Shown here: in pieces, positions 35 to 6,711 of the stretch | Layout of the letters: the number at the start of each line of letters is the position of its first letter | Position numbering within the stretch: position 1 is the first letter of the stretch | Assembly: GCF_015277775.1 (NCBI RefSeq) | Contig: NZ_CP063849.1 | Span: 3,658,001-3,722,000, forward strand | DNA: 64,000 bases | From: Paludibaculum fermentans | Lineage (GTDB): Bacteria; Acidobacteriota; Terriglobia; Bryobacterales; Bryobacteraceae | Reading direction: 5' to 3' | The notes under the pieces: model-generated | What the model was told of the DNA's origin: nothing | Database searches by the model: none | Seen by the model: the letters and a program-made list of their open reading frames with translations, nothing else | Position numbers and translations under genes: made by a program

Positions 35-280
35 TTACGACTGGTCGCGCGTCTGCCGGTCCAGCCGGTTCACATAGCGCAGCAGCAGGGCGCTGCCCGC
101 AAACAGTAATCCGGACAACACAGCCCCCGGCACGGCCGCCTCATGATGGCCGGCCAGGTAAGTTTCGACAGAGGCCATCAGCATCCAGATCTGCACCACC
201 AGGATCACGACAATCAGCGCCAGCGCGCCGTTGATCCCCTTCAGACTTCTGCGCCGCAGGGGCGATTCGCCGTCCGTCAT
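35..280 (-). CDS. Small two-helix membrane protein (DUF6755-like) of the nitrate reductase cluster
   Basis: The 81-residue product has a charged N-terminus and two hydrophobic segments, at about residues 18-38 and 48-70, with a basic C-terminal tail. It starts 4 bp after the Rieske gene stop on the same strand, so it is almost certainly co-transcribed with it. Small proteins of this shape are annotated as DUF6755 next to Rieske subunits; that assignment is from memory of the family, not from a search. A plausible role is a membrane anchor or accessory subunit of the electron-transfer complex, which is inference. The gene is the last of the cluster inside the window. Confidence 0.7.
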   Translation of the reverse strand: MTDGESPLRRRSLKGINGALALIVVILVVQIWMLMASVETYLAGHHEAAVPGAVLSGLLFAGSALLLRYVNRLDRQTRDQS

Positions 281-284
281 GGCG

Positions 285-803
285 CTAGGACTCCTCTCCG
301 GTGGTCATTCCAATCGCCACCAGTTCGCTGCCGCGCCGCTCCAGTTCCACCCTGGGCAAAGGCCTGGGTGGAGGACCCTGCAACACGCGCCCGTCCTCGA
401 TGGAGAAGTAGCCTTCGTGGCACGGGCACTCCAGCCGGTTGTGCTTCGCCGAGTACAGCACCGCGCACGACAGGTGGGTGCACTTCTGGCTGTAGGCCAC
501 GAACTTCTGCTCGCCGACGCGCACCAGCAGGCAGTTGTCCTGCGGCGTCGGATACTGGAAGACCTTGGCACTGCCCACGGCCAGCCCGTCGGCGCCATTC
601 ACGACCAGCGCCGGAAAGGCCGCCTGCCGCCGGCTGAGCAGGTTCTTCGCCACCAGCCACAGTTGGCCGGCGAACATGGCGAAGCTCGTCAATGTGAGGA
701 ACCGCGTGAACTGCCTGCGCTCGACAAAGCTCGACTCGCCGGACCGGACCGAGAACTCCTCGCTCCACAACCGCTGCTTCGGGCACTCCTTCTGCTGGCT
801 CAT
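285..803 (-). CDS. Rieske [2Fe-2S] protein with N-terminal membrane anchor
   Basis: The 172-residue product has a twin-arginine-like stretch (ERRQFTRF, residues 28-35) followed by a hydrophobic helix to about residue 50. A Rieske fold comes next. The cluster ligands are clear: C108-x-H110 and C126-x2-H129. The extra cysteines C113 and C128 are in the positions of the structural disulfide of bc1-type Rieske proteins, which favours a high-potential cluster. The start ATG at 803 overlaps the stop of the upstream ferredoxin gene (ATGA), so translation is probably coupled. Longer readings upstream are only shadow of that gene. Likely role: membrane-anchored electron carrier for the molybdoenzyme encoded upstream. 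It could instead serve a separate quinol oxidase branch. Confidence 0.87.
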
Positions 804-1378
804 TCCTCTCCTTCCCAGATGGCATCCGCCACATCCACACTCATCACCGGCTCCGACGCCGGCAGCATGTAATGAACCTTCGTCCGCACCACCTGCCCGC
901 CAAAGTGAAACTCGTTGGACGCACGCTCGCGCCGCTTCTGCGCGGCCTGCTCCGCCGGCACGTACATCAGCGCCTGGCTGGGGCAGACCGTGGCGCACAT
1001 GGGCCGCTTGCCGATGCTGGTGCGGTCGTAGCACATGTCGCACTTCATCATCAGTTCCATCTCGGCGAACACATTCGGCACGCCGAAGGGACAGGCCAGC
1101 ACGCAGTTGGAGCAGCCGATGCAGCGCGGCTTCAACGCCGTCCTCACGATGCCGTCCTCGCCCTTCTTGATCGCGTCCGCCGGACACACCTGCGCGCACG
1201 TGGGATCCTCGCAATGCATGCAGACCATGGGCGCCGTGGCGATCGTGTTGGGCCTATCGATGAAGTCCAGGTGGATCATCGAGACGCCGCGGTGCGTGCC
1301 GCACTCCGCACAGGCGCTCACGCAGGACTGGCAGCCGATGCAGCGCGACGGGTCGACGTAGAACTCATAGCCGAACAT
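800..1378 (-). CDS. Ferredoxin-type electron-transfer subunit with four [4Fe-4S] motifs (NrfC/DmsB-like)
   Basis: The 192-residue product has no signal peptide. It carries four cysteine groups typical of molybdoenzyme beta subunits: C13-x2-C-x2-C-x3-C, a second group [15 protein letters not shown], a third [12 protein letters not shown], and a fourth pair CDMC with CATVCP. The length and order match the DmsB/NrfC/PsrB group, which passes electrons between a membrane subunit and a Mo-bisMGD catalytic subunit. The gene lies 3 bp after the catalytic gene and overlaps the Rieske gene by 4 bp. The first cluster lacks the usual proline after its last cysteine. Cytoplasmic location is inferred from the lack of an export signal in both this protein and the catalytic subunit. 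Confidence 0.88.
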
Positions 1379-1381
1379 GGC

Positions 1382-3574
1382 TCACTGGCCTCCCTGCGGA
1401 CCCGCTGCCTTCTCGATGCGGCAGGCAGAGACCTTGAACTCTGGGATCTTGCTGCGCGGATCCAGCGTCCGGTGCGTCAATCGGTTCGCACTCTTGCGGC
1501 CGGGCCAGTGGTAGGGGATGAAGACCGTATCGGGCCGGATGGTGCGCACCACCATGGCCTGCACCGTGATGGAACTCCGGCGGGTGGTCACCGTCACCCA
1601 GTCGTCGTTCAGGATCCCATGCCGCTCGGCGAGCTTGGGATGAACCTCCACTTTGGGATTCGGGTACTGATCGACCAGCGCTCCAATGCGGCGGGTCTGT
1701 GCTCCGGAAAGGTACTGGCTGACGACGCGGCCGGTCGTCAGGAAGGTGGGGAAGTCATCGGCCACGGGATCGCCGCTGGGCCGGACCTCCGCCACCAGGA
1801 ACCGCGCCCGTCCATCGGGATGCAGGAACTTGCCGCCCTCAAAGAACCGAGGCGTGCCCGGATGATCCAGCGTGGGGCACGGCCAGAAGATGCCCATCTC
1901 CTTCTCGATGCGCTCGTAGGTGATGCCGTAGTAATCCGCATGGCCGCCGCGCGAGGCCTCGCGCAGCTCATCGAAAATCTCCCGCGTCGACTCGAACGGG
2001 AAGTACTGCCCCTTGCCCAGGCGGCGCGCCAGATCCACCACAATGGCGCTGTCGCCGCGCGCCTGTCCCGGCGGATCCACGGCTTTGTTGATCTTGATGA
2101 CGCGGCCTTCGCCGCTGCCCACGACGCCCTCTTCCTCCTCCTGCAGGCTGCCCGCGAGCACGACGTCGGCGTGATGCGCGGTCTCGGAGAGGAAGAAATC
2201 CACGACGCAGAAGAACTCGAGCTTCTCCAGGGCAGCTCGTGTGTACTCGCTGTCCGGCAGCGACACCAGCGGGTTGAAGCACATCGAAAACAGCGCCTTG
2301 ATCTCGCCGCGGTGGATCGCTTCCATGATCTCCACCGCGCTGTAGCCCGCCTGCGGGATCTCCTCCGGAGTGATGCCCCAGACCTTCGCTACGTGCTCGC
2401 GCGCCGCCGGATCCGCGATGTGCCGCTGGCCCGGCAACTGGTCGCACTTCTGCCCGTGCTCACGGCCGCCCTGCCCGTTGCCCTGCCCCGTGATCATGTT
2501 CGGACCGGCGCCTTCCCGTCCGATATTGCCGGTCGCCAGGCAAAGATTGACCAGCGCCAGGCAGTTCTCCACGCCATGCGAGTGATGCTCGATGCCGCGG
2601 GCATGCAGGGCCATGGCCCGCTCCGCCATGCCGAACCACTGGGCCGCCTTCTCGATGTCTTCCGGACGCACTCCCGTCACGTCGGCGGCCCGGCGCGGAT
2701 CCCAGGCCTTCACATACTCGGCCACCTGGTCGAACCCGTTCGTGTGGTTCTCGATGAACTCCAGGTCCGCCAGGCCATCGCGCACAATCACGTGGAGCAT
2801 GGCCGAGAACAACGCCGTGTCCGTGCCGGGCCGCACAGGCAGATACAGATCCGCATTGCGTGTAATGGGTGTCATGCGCGGGTCGGCGACAATCAGCCGG
2901 CCACCGTTGTCGCGCATGCGCCACAGATAGTCGGTCGTGATGGGGAAGCACTCGCCGACGTTCGCACCGGCCACCAGCACCACCTGGGCCTTCGGGATGT
3001 CTTCCCACGGGTTCGGATTGCGGTCGACGCCCAACGCCAGTTTGTAGGCCGTACCGGCCGATACCATGCACAAGCGGCCGTTGTAGTCGATGTGCCGTGT
3101 GCCCAGCGCCACGCGCGCGAATTTCCCCAACAGGTAAGATTTCTCGGTGATGAGCGAGGCTCCGCCGTAGACGGCCACCGAGTCCTTGCCGTACTTCGCC
3201 TGGATCTCCTGCAGCCGCCGCGCCGTCAGGCTCATCGCCTCTTCCCAGCCGGCCTCTCGAAATCCGCTGTCGGTGCGGATCAGTGGAGCCAGCAACCGGT
3301 CCGGGTGCGCGCTTTGCATGTAGCGCCGTACACCTTTGGGACACAGCATGCCGCGATTGAACGGAAACTCCTCCCAGGGCTCAAACCCGGTCACCTGGTT
3401 GTCGCGCACCTTCAACTGAATGCCGCACTGCTGCCCGCAAAAGCAGCAATGCGTCTTCACCAGTTTCTCCGGACCCTTCAGCGATTCCCCTTGCCAGCCG
3501 CCGGGCGGAACGTACTTCAGGTGCGGTCCGTACTGCTCGGTCAGTGCCTCAACGGATTGCGGAGGCTTGGCCAT
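1382..3574 (-). CDS. Molybdopterin (bisMGD) oxidoreductase, nitrate reductase-like catalytic subunit
   Basis: The 730-residue product begins with a [4Fe-4S] site, C43-x2-C46-x3-C50 and C78 (NRGMLCPKG), as in NapA/NasA/NarB. The segment DYNGRLCMVSA (around residue 169) matches the cysteine Mo-ligand region of the Nap/Nas group (typically NSRLCMSSA) better than the formate dehydrogenase motif. The C-terminal part has the molydopterin dinucleotide-binding fold. No Tat signal is present, so a cytoplasmic enzyme is expected. It overlaps the upstream NarK-like gene by 26 bp. The substrate is most likely nitrate because of the motif and the NarK-type partner, but other Mo/W substrates cannot be excluded from sequence alone. 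No chaperone or nitrite reductase gene is present in the window. Confidence 0.83.
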   Translation of the reverse strand: MAKPPQSVEALTEQYGPHLKYVPPGGWQGESLKGPEKLVKTHCCFCGQQCGIQLKVRDNQVTGFEPWEEFPFNRGMLCPKGVRRYMQSAHPDRLLAPLIRTDSGFREAGWEEAMSLTARRLQEIQAKYGKDSVAVYGGASLITEKSYLLGKFARVALGTRHIDYNGRLCMVSAGTAYKLALGVDRNPNPWEDIPKAQVVLVAGANVGECFPITTDYLWRMRDNGGRLIVADPRMTPITRNADLYLPVRPGTDTALFSAMLHVIVRDGLADLEFIENHTNGFDQVAEYVKAWDPRRAADVTGVRPEDIEKAAQWFGMAERAMALHARGIEHHSHGVENCLALVNLCLATGNIGREGAGPNMITGQGNGQGGREHGQKCDQLPGQRHIADPAAREHVAKVWGITPEEIPQAGYSAVEIMEAIHRGEIKALFSMCFNPLVSLPDSEYTRAALEKLEFFCVVDFFLSETAHHADVVLAGSLQEEEEGVVGSGEGRVIKINKAVDPPGQARGDSAIVVDLARRLGKGQYFPFESTREIFDELREASRGGHADYYGITYERIEKEMGIFWPCPTLDHPGTPRFFEGGKFLHPDGRARFLVAEVRPSGDPVADDFPTFLTTGRVVSQYLSGAQTRRIGALVDQYPNPKVEVHPKLAERHGILNDDWVTVTTRRSSITVQAMVVRTIRPDTVFIPYHWPGRKSANRLTHRTLDPRSKIPEFKVSACRIEKAAGPQGGQ

Positions 3575-5801
3575 GCGCGTTCTCCTTCACTCTCATCTGC
3601 ACCGTCGCCAGGGTCTTGCGCTTGCACGGCGGGCAGACCGCCTGCCAGTGCGACGAGCCGTCCTTCGACGTATAGTCGAACCCCAGTTGCGGCAGCACCG
3701 TCTTCAAGTCCTCAATGTGCATTTTCGAAGCGAATCGCTGCCCGCAACGGAGGCAGTGCGACCCCTCATCCTCGTCTCCGGCCTGCTGGTAGACCTTCAC
3801 GCCCAACTGCGCCGGGCGCTGGAAGATGTGGAAGAACTTCCCGAACGGCAGGTACAGCAGCGCGCCGATCACGCTGATGGCGTGGATCACGGCCAGGAAG
3901 CCGTAGAACGCGCCGCGGAACCAGAGCGTGGAGACCGTCAGCGCCAGGCCCGTGACGGAGATCGCGAAGAGCAGAGCCAGGGGCAGGAAGTCCGCGGCCA
4001 TTGTCTCCAGCGCGAGCGCGCCTTCGTCCTTCATCCGCCGCCCCAGCGAGAGCGCGATTCCGCCCAGCACCAGGACCGCCGAGAAATCGAGCCCATGAAA
4101 CAGGACCCAGGCCATCAGCGAACGCGCGGGCATCGTGCCCACCGGGAAGCCGAACAGCCAAGTGATGTAGGTCATCTGATCGTCGGGATGCGATGTAAAA
4201 TTGACCCAGCCGAACACCAGGGGAAACGTGATGGCGGCCGCGGATAAGCAGCCCCAGAACAGCATCTGGTGCATCCACCAGCGCGTCCGGCTGCGCTTTG
4301 CGATGAACTTCTGCGCGATCAGGTGGGTGCCCGCGGTCTGCGTGACCAGGGCCAAAGTCTTCAGCCAACCGCGCGACCGCGCCAGTTCCAGGCTCCGCTG
4401 CCAGTAGCGCTTCGTGGGCGGCTTCTGCAGCCATACCGCGTAGTGGAAGGTCACGCCGAACGTGGCGAAAATGACGGCAAACGTGTAAACCACCAGGGCC
4501 GCGTCGAAGTTCTGGAGATTCCTGGAGCCGATGACAATCGAGGCAACCAGTAGCCCCGTCACCGCCACGGCCCACGCTCCGGCACGCAGTTGATCGGCTC
4601 GCCGCGCAAAGTCCGGCTGCAGGTTCAGTTCCAGCGCCTGCTGGCGGGGAATGAAGACCCGCAGGTTCAGGAACCACAGCAGTAGCGAGGTCGCGGCCAA
4701 CAGCACGAAGCCGGGCCAAACGACGCCCACCGAGTCGCGAAAGCGGCCCAGCAGGAGAGGAGGAAAGAATCCGCCCAGTCCGCCCATGGCGCCCACCAGG
4801 CCGGTTACCGTGGCGGTGTTTCCTGGGAAATATTGCGGCACCAGCTTGAAGACCGCTCCGTTGCCTAACCCCAGCAGCGCCGCGCAGCCCAGCGCGCCTA
4901 CGGTGAACGGCACCATCGACGGCCACGCCAATAGCAGCGCGAATGGCACGATGCCGAGGAAGACGCCCCACAGCACGCGGGCGCCGCCCAACCGGTCTGC
5001 CAATGCACCGCCCACCGGACGCAGCAACGTCGCCAGCACCACGAAGCCAGCCGCCCGGAATCCCGCATTCGCCGGAGCCAGCCCGAAGTCGTCCTTCAAC
5101 AGCGACGGCAGATAGATGGAGAACGCCACAAAGCCGCCGAAGGTGAGGAAGTAGAACAGCGACAGAACCCAGGCCAGCGGCTCCTTCGTGAGGATCTGGA
5201 CCATCGGCCCCAGTCCCTTTATGTTCGGCACGAACGCAGGCGCATTCCGAGCCAGCATCCAGAAGGCCACCGACCACACCACCAGCAGGGCCGAGATTCC
5301 ATAGATGAAGTTGGCGCGGCCGATCATCGCGGCCAGCACGGGTCCCAGGAAGACCACCGCCGACTGGCCCATGTTGCCCATCCCATATAGCCCCAGCGCC
5401 GTGCCCTGCCGTTCCGCCGCAAACCACTTGGAGACGAACCCGACGCCCACTGAGAAGGACGATCCAGCCACACCAACAAAGAAGCCCGAGGCCAGCAGCC
5501 CGTTATATGTGGACACATTGGCCAGCACCGCGCCCGCTCCGGCGGAGGCGAGGAACAGCACCGTAAACACCACCCGGCCGCCAAAACGGTCTGTCAGCAT
5601 GCCCAGAGGAATGCGCCCGAGGGAGCCTAGCAACACCGGCACGGCCACGATCAGCGACGTCTGTGTCGCCGTCAGGTGAAACTGCTGCCGGTATGCCGGC
5701 GCGAACGAACTGACGATACCCCACACGGCGAAGCACAGGAAAAACGAGATTGTGCCCAGCCACAACTGAAGCTTTTGCGAACTGCTCTCCGAATCGCTCA
5801 A
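3549..5801 (-). CDS. NarK-type MFS transporter fused to a cytochrome b-like membrane domain
   Basis: The product has about 750 residues, against about 400-450 for ordinary NarK. The N-terminal 400 residues are an MFS transporter with the MLTDRFGGR loop and NarK-like helices. The C-terminal part holds a second block of about five or six helices with histidines well placed for haem (FHYAVW, GTHLIAQ, MHQMLFW, FHGLDF, VIHAIS, KFFHIFQ). This pattern recalls NarI/DsrM/HdrE-type cytochrome b. A tail with two CxxC pairs (HCLRCG and VCPPCK) ends the protein. The TTG at 5801 is preferred because GGGAGGA lies five bases upstream. The ATG at 5840 lacks a Shine-Dalgarno and abuts a palindrome. It heads the nitrate reductase-like operon and probably combines transport with quinol oxidation. 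Confidence 0.75.
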   Translation of the reverse strand: MSDSESSSQKLQLWLGTISFFLCFAVWGIVSSFAPAYRQQFHLTATQTSLIVAVPVLLGSLGRIPLGMLTDRFGGRVVFTVLFLASAGAGAVLANVSTYNGLLASGFFVGVAGSSFSVGVGFVSKWFAAERQGTALGLYGMGNMGQSAVVFLGPVLAAMIGRANFIYGISALLVVWSVAFWMLARNAPAFVPNIKGLGPMVQILTKEPLAWVLSLFYFLTFGGFVAFSIYLPSLLKDDFGLAPANAGFRAAGFVVLATLLRPVGGALADRLGGARVLWGVFLGIVPFALLLAWPSMVPFTVGALGCAALLGLGNGAVFKLVPQYFPGNTATVTGLVGAMGGLGGFFPPLLLGRFRDSVGVVWPGFVLLAATSLLLWFLNLRVFIPRQQALELNLQPDFARRADQLRAGAWAVAVTGLLVASIVIGSRNLQNFDAALVVYTFAVIFATFGVTFHYAVWLQKPPTKRYWQRSLELARSRGWLKTLALVTQTAGTHLIAQKFIAKRSRTRWWMHQMLFWGCLSAAAITFPLVFGWVNFTSHPDDQMTYITWLFGFPVGTMPARSLMAWVLFHGLDFSAVLVLGGIALSLGRRMKDEGALALETMAADFLPLALLFAISVTGLALTVSTLWFRGAFYGFLAVIHAISVIGALLYLPFGKFFHIFQRPAQLGVKVYQQAGDEDEGSHCLRCGQRFASKMHIEDLKTVLPQLGFDYTSKDGSSHWQAVCPPCKRKTLATVQMRVKENAHGQASAIR

Positions 5802-5851
5802 GCAATCCTCCCTCTCACGCTGCATCTTGGCATGCGCCATCGGGCCGGGTC

Positions 5852-5867
5852 GGTGACAAAAGTCACC
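5852..5867. promoter_or_regulatory. Perfect palindrome GGTGAC-N4-GTCACC, probable regulator site of the nitrate operon
   Basis: The two 6-bp arms are perfect and separated by AAAA. The half-site spacing fits a CRP/FNR-superfamily dimer (GTGA-N6-TCAC). The site lies about 50 bp before the preferred TTG start of the NarK fusion. The same core stands upstream of the RIC gene at 6698-6711. Whether it activates or represses cannot be told, because the -10 element is not clear. Confidence 0.6.
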
Positions 5868-5929: not shown

Positions 5930-6640
5930 TCAGCGCCGTTCCAAGGCAATGGCACGCGGAAATAGAATGTTGTTTTCCAGATGAATATGCACGTGGAGGT
6001 CAGCTTCCAACGCCTGCAGACCGTCGAACAGCATCCGTACCGTGGTGCACGCGTAGGAGGGTAATTCGTAGTTGTTGGTCAAGGTCCGCAGTTCCACCAG
6101 GGCCTCGCCGGCGCCCTCATGCTCGCGCTCCATCATCGCGATGGGGTTGCCGATGGAGCCAAACGGAACCGGCGGCATGGGCTGGCCCTGCGCTTCCGCG
6201 TCGGCATACCTGGCGATGAACGGGAAGAGGATCTGCTCTTCCTTGTTGATGTGTGCTTCCAGTTCGCTACGCAGTCCGTCATACACCGTCGCCATGCGCG
6301 ACAGCGTCTGCGGATCGCGCCCGCCATGAACCCGCAACACTTTCTCCATGCGCGCGCCGACGGCCGGCAGTTCCTGCCTCAGATACTCGTGATGGGTGGC
6401 GATGATGTGCCGCGCCAGCTCACCCAGGGGCGCGTTCTGCCAGTCGCGGTCGCCGCCGCCTACATGGAGCGACTGCTCGATCTCCTGCATCACGGCCGCG
6501 GGATCCAGTCCCTTGGCCGAGCAGGCAGCCCCAATCGCCTGTTTGCCGCCGCAGCAGTAGTCCAGGCCGTAGCGTTCCAGGGTCCTCACCGCCACCAGGG
6601 AGGTTGCGGCGATGTCAGCTAAAGTCGTCGTGGTAGTCAT
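5930..6640 (-). CDS. ric: Iron-sulfur cluster repair di-iron protein (RIC/ScdA/YtfE/DnrN family)
   Basis: The 236-residue product has the N-terminal ScdA_N segment with the diagnostic DYCCGG motif. A four-helix haemerythrin-like domain follows, with metal-binding residues in THHEYLR, HINKEEQILFP, EREHEGAG and HIHLENNILFP. The family repairs iron-sulfur clusters damaged by nitric oxide or oxidants and is cytoplasmic. The ATG at 6640 is chosen because GAGGA lies just upstream; an in-frame ATG at 6670 would add ten residues without a ribosome-binding site. A GTGAC-N4-GTCAC palindrome sits about 60 bp upstream, matching the one before the nitrate operon. This supports joint control during nitrate or NO metabolism. 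Confidence 0.92.
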   Translation of the reverse strand: MTTTTTLADIAATSLVAVRTLERYGLDYCCGGKQAIGAACSAKGLDPAAVMQEIEQSLHVGGGDRDWQNAPLGELARHIIATHHEYLRQELPAVGARMEKVLRVHGGRDPQTLSRMATVYDGLRSELEAHINKEEQILFPFIARYADAEAQGQPMPPVPFGSIGNPIAMMEREHEGAGEALVELRTLTNNYELPSYACTTVRMLFDGLQALEADLHVHIHLENNILFPRAIALERR

Positions 6641-6697: not shown

Positions 6698-6711
6698 GTG
6701 ACGCAAGTCAC
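6698..6711. promoter_or_regulatory. Palindrome GTGAC-N4-GTCAC upstream of ric
   Basis: Perfect 5-bp arms flank GCAA. On the minus strand the centre lies about 64 bp before the ric start. Candidate -10 boxes (TATAGT at 6676-6681 or CATGAT at 6670-6675) lie downstream. With the second box, the palindrome centre would fall at -41.5, the class II position of FNR-type activators. The core is identical to that of the site at 5852-5867. Confidence 0.55.

Follow-up and report, generated by a model that had tools for sequence, protein, structure and literature searches.

We analysed a 64,000-nucleotide stretch of the 9.5 Mb genome of Paludibaculum fermentans (contig NZ_CP063849.1, positions 3,658,001 to 3,722,000; 'the window' means this whole stretch), near the start of which lies an operon, wholly on the minus strand, for a nitrate reductase-like system. 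Open reading frames (ORFs) of the window were assigned using Pfam and TIGRFAM-type profiles. The genes run in the order RIC, a NarK-cytochrome b fusion, a NasC-like catalytic subunit, a ferredoxin, a Rieske protein and DUF6755 (Table 1). The initial annotation of this DNA had listed a NarK-cytochrome b fusion followed by molybdenum bis(molybdopterin guanine dinucleotide) (Mo-bis-MGD), ferredoxin and Rieske subunits, and the profile matches and common strand bear out that order and content; where it had 'small membrane subunits' in the plural, we found one alone, DUF6755. The operon ends there, and the next gene, past the window edge, is prepilin peptidase-like as judged by eye from its translation. 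Because neighbouring genes from the fusion to DUF6755 overlap or are spaced by 3-4 bases, they are likely co-transcribed as a single transcript from the fusion down.

Table 1. Features of the operon and its upstream region (window coordinates)
Feature	Position	Strand	Support
DUF6755 (PF20540) small membrane protein, last operon gene	35..280	-	Pfam E 8.2e-12
Rieske [2Fe-2S] protein, 172 aa, RR-x-F N-terminal motif then hydrophobic anchor	285..803	-	PF00355 E 1.4e-11
Four-cluster ferredoxin (DmsB/FdnH type), no evident signal	800..1378	-	TIGR02951 96.4 bits, below cut-off 214.1
NasC-like Mo-bis-MGD catalytic subunit, 730 aa, Mo ligand Cys169 in RLCM	1382..3574	-	NF047855
Cytochrome-b-like module of fusion, residues 405-763	3549..4628	-	AlphaFold2 (AF2) model, conservation, weak EtfD fold match
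NarK-type nitrate/nitrite major facilitator superfamily (MFS) transporter half, fusion residues 1-404	4629..5840	-	TIGR00886 224 bits
Palindrome GTGACAAAAGTCAC upstream of fusion, putative operator	5853..5866	.	11 copies genome-wide
Iron-sulfur repair di-iron protein RIC/YtfE/ScdA, ATG 6640	5930..6640	-	TIGR03652 238.5 bits, above cut-off 204.7
Palindrome GTGACGCAAGTCAC upstream of RIC, putative operator	6698..6711	.	Pattern GTGAC-N4-GTCAC

The same set of genes recurs in other genomes, where the initial annotation had proposed to look for it. The cytochrome module was present in at least 44/297 genomes drawn from the phylum (all E <= 3.4e-76; up to three candidates scored per genome), and a scan of a genome collection gave at least 524 confirmed relatives of the module, the best 80 of which, ranked by likeness to the module studied here, were analysed. 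With 30 of 38 acidobacterial stretches these make up 110 loci, some of them redundant (L046/L112, L058/L139 and L059/L155 identical, one genome repeated); 92 have at least 4.6 kb of downstream sequence and 82 have 6 kb. Among the 92, NasC, the ferredoxin and the Rieske protein each occur in 91, as does DUF6755 by iterated profile (61 by plain tblastn). In the exception (L041) the tail of the fusion is altered, and the 19 kb taken contain no cassette.

By record title, the holders among the best 80 of at least 524 relatives belong to the Acidobacteriota, Planctomycetota, Armatimonadota, Chloroflexota, Myxococcota and the Obscuribacterales of the Melainabacteria, with one locus each in the Gemmatimonadota and Verrucomicrobiota; most are metagenome-assembled genomes (MAGs), for which errors of title and binning are possible. 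A ninth phylum comes from four cassette-bearing Deinococcus plasmids, and in the plasmid collection the module was found only in these four. The closest named relative of the module among the matches listed is from an Acidobacteria MAG (L076, 96% identical), and the fusion is present in 4/8 congeners. Named isolates that have the cassette in unfused form include Deinococcus wulumuqiensis and Lacipirellula limnantheis. On the Deinococcus plasmids the unfused cytochrome is annotated publicly as 'MFS transporter'. In one of them (L182, 7774-8886) the 370-aa protein aligns to the module over residues 30-364, which leaves no room for a transporter half, and the public label would hide an electron-transfer subunit.

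The fusion has 763 residues when read from the ATG at 5840 (5840-3549), and 750 from the TTG at 5801 that was first taken as its start. Residues 25-357 match the NarK profile TIGR00886 over positions 2-368 of 368 (224.3 bits, E 2.4e-66), below a cut-off of 311.7 that is also missed by the other NarK of this genome (264.2) and by the fusion of an Armatimonadetes locus, L119 (236.1). R76 and R274 are invariant across 30 fusions and presumably correspond to the nitrate-binding R89 and R305 of Escherichia coli NarK. For the second half, a NarI identity was tried through Pfam and gave no match: at E <= 0.001 the fusion matches MFS_1 alone and no NarI, cytochrome or iron-sulfur (Fe-S) domain family, and the unfused module of L142 has no Pfam match. 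Residues 446-677 show weak profile similarity to QmoC, a cytochrome-b protein (32.7 bits, well short of the cut-off of 300). A fold search with the module ranked mycobacterial EtfD first of 489, and the sole sequence match to a solved structure was between the C-terminal Cys domain of the module and subunit 6 of formate hydrogenlyase (weak, E 0.46).

In a model of the whole fusion chain (mean predicted local distance difference test score, pLDDT, 85.5; predicted template-modelling score, pTM, 0.79), 12 long helices belong to the transporter part and six more to the second module, and the C-terminus forms a small CxxC...CPxC domain; modelled alone with AF2, the module gave a mean pLDDT of 88.9. 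We read the six long helices as probably transmembrane, from the predicted helices rather than from a transmembrane predictor. H524, H653, H671 and K668 are invariant in 111/111 module rows, and the loop 471-517 carries on average 9.4 Lys and Arg residues versus 1.5 in the loop 542-577. A 12-helix MFS domain ends inside the cell. With the N-terminus of the module inside, H524/H671 would form a pair at the inner face and H582/H653 a pair at the outer face, a sidedness suggested by the charge pattern and the predicted helices. In NarI, a cytochrome b, there is a His pair close to each side of the membrane. The placement of the four residues matches that plan by position, from which we infer haem ligation. 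The description of this block as 'His-rich' had been loose, since it holds three invariant His and one nearly invariant (H582), and it contains candidates for the paired haem ligands sought in it, as two pairs that would lie near opposite faces. Nor does this predicted arrangement support the idea, made with the initial annotation, of a necessarily unusual electron path through the membrane: His pairs at the two faces of a cytochrome b are the ordinary NarI-type solution.

The catalytic subunit matches NF047855 with 798.8 bits (E 4.3e-240, below the cut-off of 1100), whilst the NarG-type profile TIGR01580 gives 46.9 bits (25.4 in the genome search) against a cut-off of 1084. As first noted, the protein has no evident Tat (twin-arginine translocation) signal: none was seen at the N-terminus of the 730-aa chain by eye, without a signal predictor. 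A Pfam and profile scan of the operon genes found no Nap partner proteins. The Mo-ligand motif is RLCM in 104/105 rows; the exception, TLCM, is shared with the second Nas enzyme of the P. fermentans genome (in locus L073). The closest non-cassette catalytic relatives in the plasmid collection are cytoplasmic NasC proteins, at 38-48% identity. In two trees built from chosen subsets (22 and 19 rows), the cassette catalytic subunits form one clade with 100/100 support. The second tree also contains six NasC-type references, three with gene tables and three from records without one, and joins them to the cassette clade at 100/100 with FdhF outside; the three annotated references adjoin nirB or nirBD.

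A formate dehydrogenase (FDH), or another bis-MGD oxidoreductase, would also be expected to score with the Fdh-alpha profile TIGR01591, as this subunit does (599.8), and its top full-length solved relatives are FDHs. In the midpoint drawing of the second tree, two FdhF references lie nearer the NasC group than does the NapA/proteobacterial Nas group; in that of the first tree, which lacks the NasC references, NapA/proteobacterial Nas is nearer than FdhF. The best solved match of the Mo-ligand region is the periplasmic nitrate reductase NapA, which reads CM at the ligand Cys and the following residue, as the cassette proteins do, whereas the compared FDHs read CH or, in one reference, CQ. Nitrate transporters also adjoin the gene. 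We therefore rejected an FDH identity on the motif and the trees (unrooted, with differing midpoint drawings), and give next to no probability to an enzyme other than a nitrate reductase. By these comparisons, the subunit appears to belong beside cytoplasmic NasC and not with FDH or NapA, and its substrate would be nitrate.

Transport genes bear on the substrate as well. Among the 82 loci with 6 kb downstream, NarK (fused included) occurs in 49 and a relative of the SLAC1 channel (assigned by PF03595 on one representative) in 28, with both in 2 and neither in 7. The two are near-exclusive (Fisher P 7.5e-13, a value inflated by kinship), and because one anion transporter is swapped for another, the substrate would be nitrate or nitrite. 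The SLAC1-family channel, found mostly without NarK in L113, L062, L137 and 25 other loci, suggests a role as a bacterial nitrate/nitrite channel. In L044 (861-3227) and L050 (8447-10885), the NarK ORFs have ~400 extra N-terminal residues with no Pfam match, which may be non-coding read-through.

The module is fused to NarK in 42/110 loci and unfused in 68 (a few cut by a contig end), a ratio that is no frequency because the ranking favoured modules resembling the one studied here; L087 has its transporter part divided between two frames. The module tree contains three changes of fusion state, all forced by supported branches. The fusion in L119 appears independent because the nearest relatives of both of its halves are unfused, and together with the changes in the tree this ruled out a single origin. 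The NarK halves of the two acidobacterial fusion groups are sisters (in a quick tree that carries a long-branch warning), so these groups may stem from one event and we claim two events rather than three. The trees thus indicate that the NarK-cytochrome fusion arose at least twice, and it possibly couples nitrate import to quinol oxidation. One frame of 1501 aa in L102 (2-4507) contains NarK, a shortened module and NasC; this triple fusion may be real or an assembly fault.

Conservation is equally strict in the electron-transfer proteins. The ferredoxin keeps 17 Cys in 97/97 rows and the Rieske protein keeps its cluster boxes, C-x-H-x-x-C...C-x-C-H, in 98/98 rows. Ahead of its hydrophobic anchor the Rieske protein has a twin Arg (R29 in 97/98 and R30 in 98/98 rows, a few of which are possibly non-cassette Rieske proteins), mostly followed by x-F-x-K/R-F-L. 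Such a motif normally marks Tat insertion, which should turn the cluster outward, in agreement with the exported type first proposed. The Rieske centre should then lie outside while NasC, without an evident signal, stays inside. This is the puzzle of the system, as a NarI-like cytochrome needs no exported-type Rieske protein. It may relay electrons at the quinol site, connect the complex to periplasmic carriers or take part in electron splitting. A search of the genome for Rieske proteins gave two further matches (43% and 42%).

The nearest solved relative of the Rieske protein is the small subunit of arsenite oxidase, by a hair over bc-type Rieske proteins. Arsenite oxidase AioAB is exported as a pair on the Tat signal of its Rieske subunit. 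By analogy, the NasC-ferredoxin pair could leave the cytoplasm together with the Rieske protein, whose Tat signal would serve all three, and form an outward-facing reductase; the conserved twin Arg fits this. We consider this improbable. The NarK or SLAC1 gene in 75/82 loci makes most sense with a cytoplasmic active site and would be left without a clear purpose, the NasC relatives are taken as cytoplasmic, and the positive loop of the cytochrome module would lie inside.

Neighbouring genes give some indication of the fate of the product. NirB was found in 0/82 loci within 6 kb downstream. Of the same 82 loci, 22 have RIC, four have NrfA with NrfH (which also adjoin the module in L047 and lie near it in L119), and five have an NnrS-like gene (PF05940, 24.5 bits, below the cut-off of 28). 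CRP/FNR-family genes occur in 17/118 clustered loci. Electrons might alternatively enter from a periplasmic carrier such as a cytochrome c or a cupredoxin by way of the Rieske protein, or leave by that route, so that the complex would connect nitrate/nitrite with a periplasmic pool of high potential, possibly as a nitrite oxidase. An exported-type Rieske protein in 91/92 loci fits such a scheme, as does Streptomyces Nar1, which according to excerpts of its description relies on a bcc-aa3 supercomplex (PMC7931247). However, the neighbour clusters that were annotated (some of the total) contained no c-type cytochromes other than NrfHA and, in four loci, one adjacent to NarG, and NrfA and RIC as neighbours indicate consumption of nitrite and nitric oxide (NO). 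We judge this route to be very improbable.

RIC and the fusion are each preceded by the palindrome GTGAC-N4-GTCAC. The genome has 11 copies of it, versus 6 of the pattern read backwards, and the 110 loci have 22, of which 11 precede RIC (6) or the fusion (5). We take GTGA-N6-TCAC to be a CRP-type site. One genomic copy lies between a CRP/FNR-type gene (L176; match below cut-off) and a radical SAM gene (TIGR04053), and another precedes a NapH-like ferredoxin gene (L177; match below cut-off). The other three of the seven copies that were read have no such gene context; one of them, the third copy in the window (28094), is inside a transglutaminase-like ORF, as judged by eye, and looks accidental. 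A small regulon comprising RIC, the fusion, the radical SAM gene beside the CRP/FNR-type gene and the NapH-like ferredoxin gene is possible on this pattern. Taken together, RIC, the CRP/FNR genes and the context of the palindrome favour hypoxic or NO-linked control. The NapH-like ferredoxin gene (L177, 1511-2749) is directly after a nuoH gene. A classical FNR box (TTGA-N6-TCAA, one mismatch) was considered and rejected: the window has 17 versus 12.3 expected, 7/100 shuffles reach 17, and there is none at the RIC and fusion promoters.

The original proposal of a nitrate-reductase module that combines a Rieske protein with a NarK-cytochrome b fusion agrees with the gene content, the NasC clade and the NarK profile. 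We think it rather probable that the operon encodes a membrane-bound quinol:nitrate complex, in which a NasC-type enzyme has been recruited to a NarI-like cytochrome and nitrate is reduced in the cytoplasm. Nitrate would enter through the NarK half of the fusion, and the cytochrome-b half would oxidise quinol near the outer face. Electrons would cross the membrane via two b haems, held by H582/H653 outside and H524/H671 inside, and would then be relayed by the four ferredoxin clusters to the Mo centre, where nitrate would be reduced to nitrite. With quinol oxidised near the outer face and nitrate reduced in the cytoplasm, the reaction would be electrogenic as in NarGHI. The Rieske protein, at the outer quinol/haem site, could be the acceptor of the first electron or a port to periplasmic carriers, and DUF6755 could be a structural or quinone-site subunit. 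RIC would repair NO damage, and a CRP/FNR-type regulator bound at the palindrome would turn on RIC and the fusion operon. A further idea, which we consider unlikely, is that the Rieske protein and the NarI-like dihaem cytochrome, as parts of unrelated origin, split the two electrons of quinol at the outer face in a Q-cycle-like manner, the Rieske centre taking one while the other crosses to NasC, and that the NarK fusion directly couples nitrate entry to reduction, uniting import of the substrate and delivery of electrons in a single polypeptide.

Several points weigh against the quinol:nitrate complex. The cytochrome module has no sequence match to any solved cytochrome b. Its match to EtfD is a hint and no more, because the fold similarity is weak (prob 1.00, E 0.014, template-modelling (TM) score 0.37) and the next-ranked structures are unrelated receptors, i.e. 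noise. H582 is kept in 104/111 rows and is otherwise K (3), N (2), R (1) or D (1), and the Rieske protein is without an evident partner on the outer side. The exact palindrome is upstream of 5/37 usable fusions and of 0/65 unfused genes, so that it marks part of the fused group alone. The genome has no NrfA over the cut-off (6/8 congeners have one) and no NirK; its only observed nitrite reductase, NirB, belongs to a second Nas locus, so an assimilatory role is conceivable. The holders of the cassette include aerobes, namely Sorangium, Herpetosiphon and Deinococcus. Finally, we infer rather than observe activity, haem binding and complex formation.

The last of the genomic points bear on a different use of the same complex, for nitrate assimilation or redox balancing only, in which quinol would replace NADH and nitrite would go to NirB elsewhere under aerobic or microoxic conditions. 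The grouping of the catalytic subunit with NasC-type enzymes, the nitrite reductase content of this genome and the cultured holders just named fit this use, and excerpts of a Bradyrhizobium study describe a NasC with an NO-detoxification partner (PMC4724949). The second nitrate locus (L073, G000:C1:4538122-4545700) combines NarK and NirB with a Nas-type enzyme and with a ferredoxin that continues into a DmsC-like anchor (PF04976) as a fusion, and appears to encode another membrane-tied Nas enzyme. A search of the genome found no NarG over the cut-off and 28 cytochrome c matches, which are uninformative. Set against assimilation are the 0/82 loci with NirB, the position of the genome's NirB in a locus that has a NarK and a Nas enzyme to itself, and the NrfHA neighbours of some loci, RIC and the CRP/FNR genes, which point to hypoxic dissimilation. 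We consider a purely assimilatory or redox-balancing role unlikely.

We conclude that the gene set is a real and widespread variant of membrane-bound nitrate reductase, undescribed as far as we searched, and that the fusion is a feature of particular lineages. The open literature searched contained no description of the set and no mention of DUF6755, which is weak evidence as most subscription papers and bioRxiv fell outside its scope. A membrane-bound version of a nitrate-reducing enzyme of the cell interior appears to be present in numerous bacteria of soil and water. If this is true, the 'assimilatory' type of nitrate reductase would, in Acidobacteriota, Planctomycetota, Chloroflexota, Myxococcota and others, be tied to the membrane and energy-linked, and gene surveys that score nasC/narB as assimilation and reserve respiration for narG/napA would misjudge major groups in soil and water. 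A MopB survey counts NasC/NasA as assimilatory (PMC10100899). The transporter-cytochrome fusion would also make substrate channelling from import to reduction directly testable.

NarGHI has a cytoplasmic Mo-bis-MGD enzyme, a four-cluster Fe-S subunit and a membrane cytochrome with His pairs at two faces, with NarK nearby. The system described here resembles it in having an Mo-bis-MGD enzyme without an evident export signal, a four-cluster Fe-S subunit, a predicted two-face His-pair cytochrome and a nearby NarK, and differs from it in the NasC branch of its catalytic subunit, in a cytochrome without a NarI Pfam match, and in the addition of a Rieske protein and DUF6755. Its catalytic subunits form one well-supported group with the cytoplasmic NasC of Bacillota, Actinomycetota and Deinococcus; unlike the three annotated loci among those, which have nirB or nirBD, the cassette is without NirB, and the NasC plasmids are without the cytochrome module. 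A NasC paired with a Rieske-type protein is known in Paracoccus, where the Rieske protein NasG/NirD lies between NADH-linked NasB and NasC, and in Bacillus bataviensis, where nasC is encoded with a Rieske gene (excerpts of PMC3475470); the Tat-type Rieske anchor, the cytochrome b and DUF6755 set the present system apart from both as described in those excerpts.

A Rieske protein and a cytochrome b also serve the nitrate reductases of haloarchaea and Methanoperedens (PMC4683180 and PMC8301774, both in part). According to the same texts, these are outward-facing NarG-type enzymes with a Tat signal and a bc1-type cytochrome b; haloarchaeal NarG bears that signal and NarC is homologous to the bc1 cytochrome b (PMC8301774). 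The haloarchaeal parallel suggested at the outset therefore fits poorly, given an enzyme here without an evident Tat signal and a module without a Pfam cytochrome match. Excerpts of other reports describe Nap with a Rieske/cytochrome b in Caldithrix (PMC5317091) and, in Melainabacteria, a nitrite oxidoreductase (NXR) followed by cytochrome b6 and narK (PMC6349859), and deal with the nar operons of Geobacter (PMC2700814), with Nitrospina (PMC3578206) and with Deferribacter (PMC6896113). Among membrane cytochromes, the EtfD/QmoC/HdrE type is the one approached by both the first-ranked fold match and the weak QmoC profile match; unlike that type, the fusion has no Pfam Fe-S domain and carries the C-terminal CxxC...CPxC domain instead.

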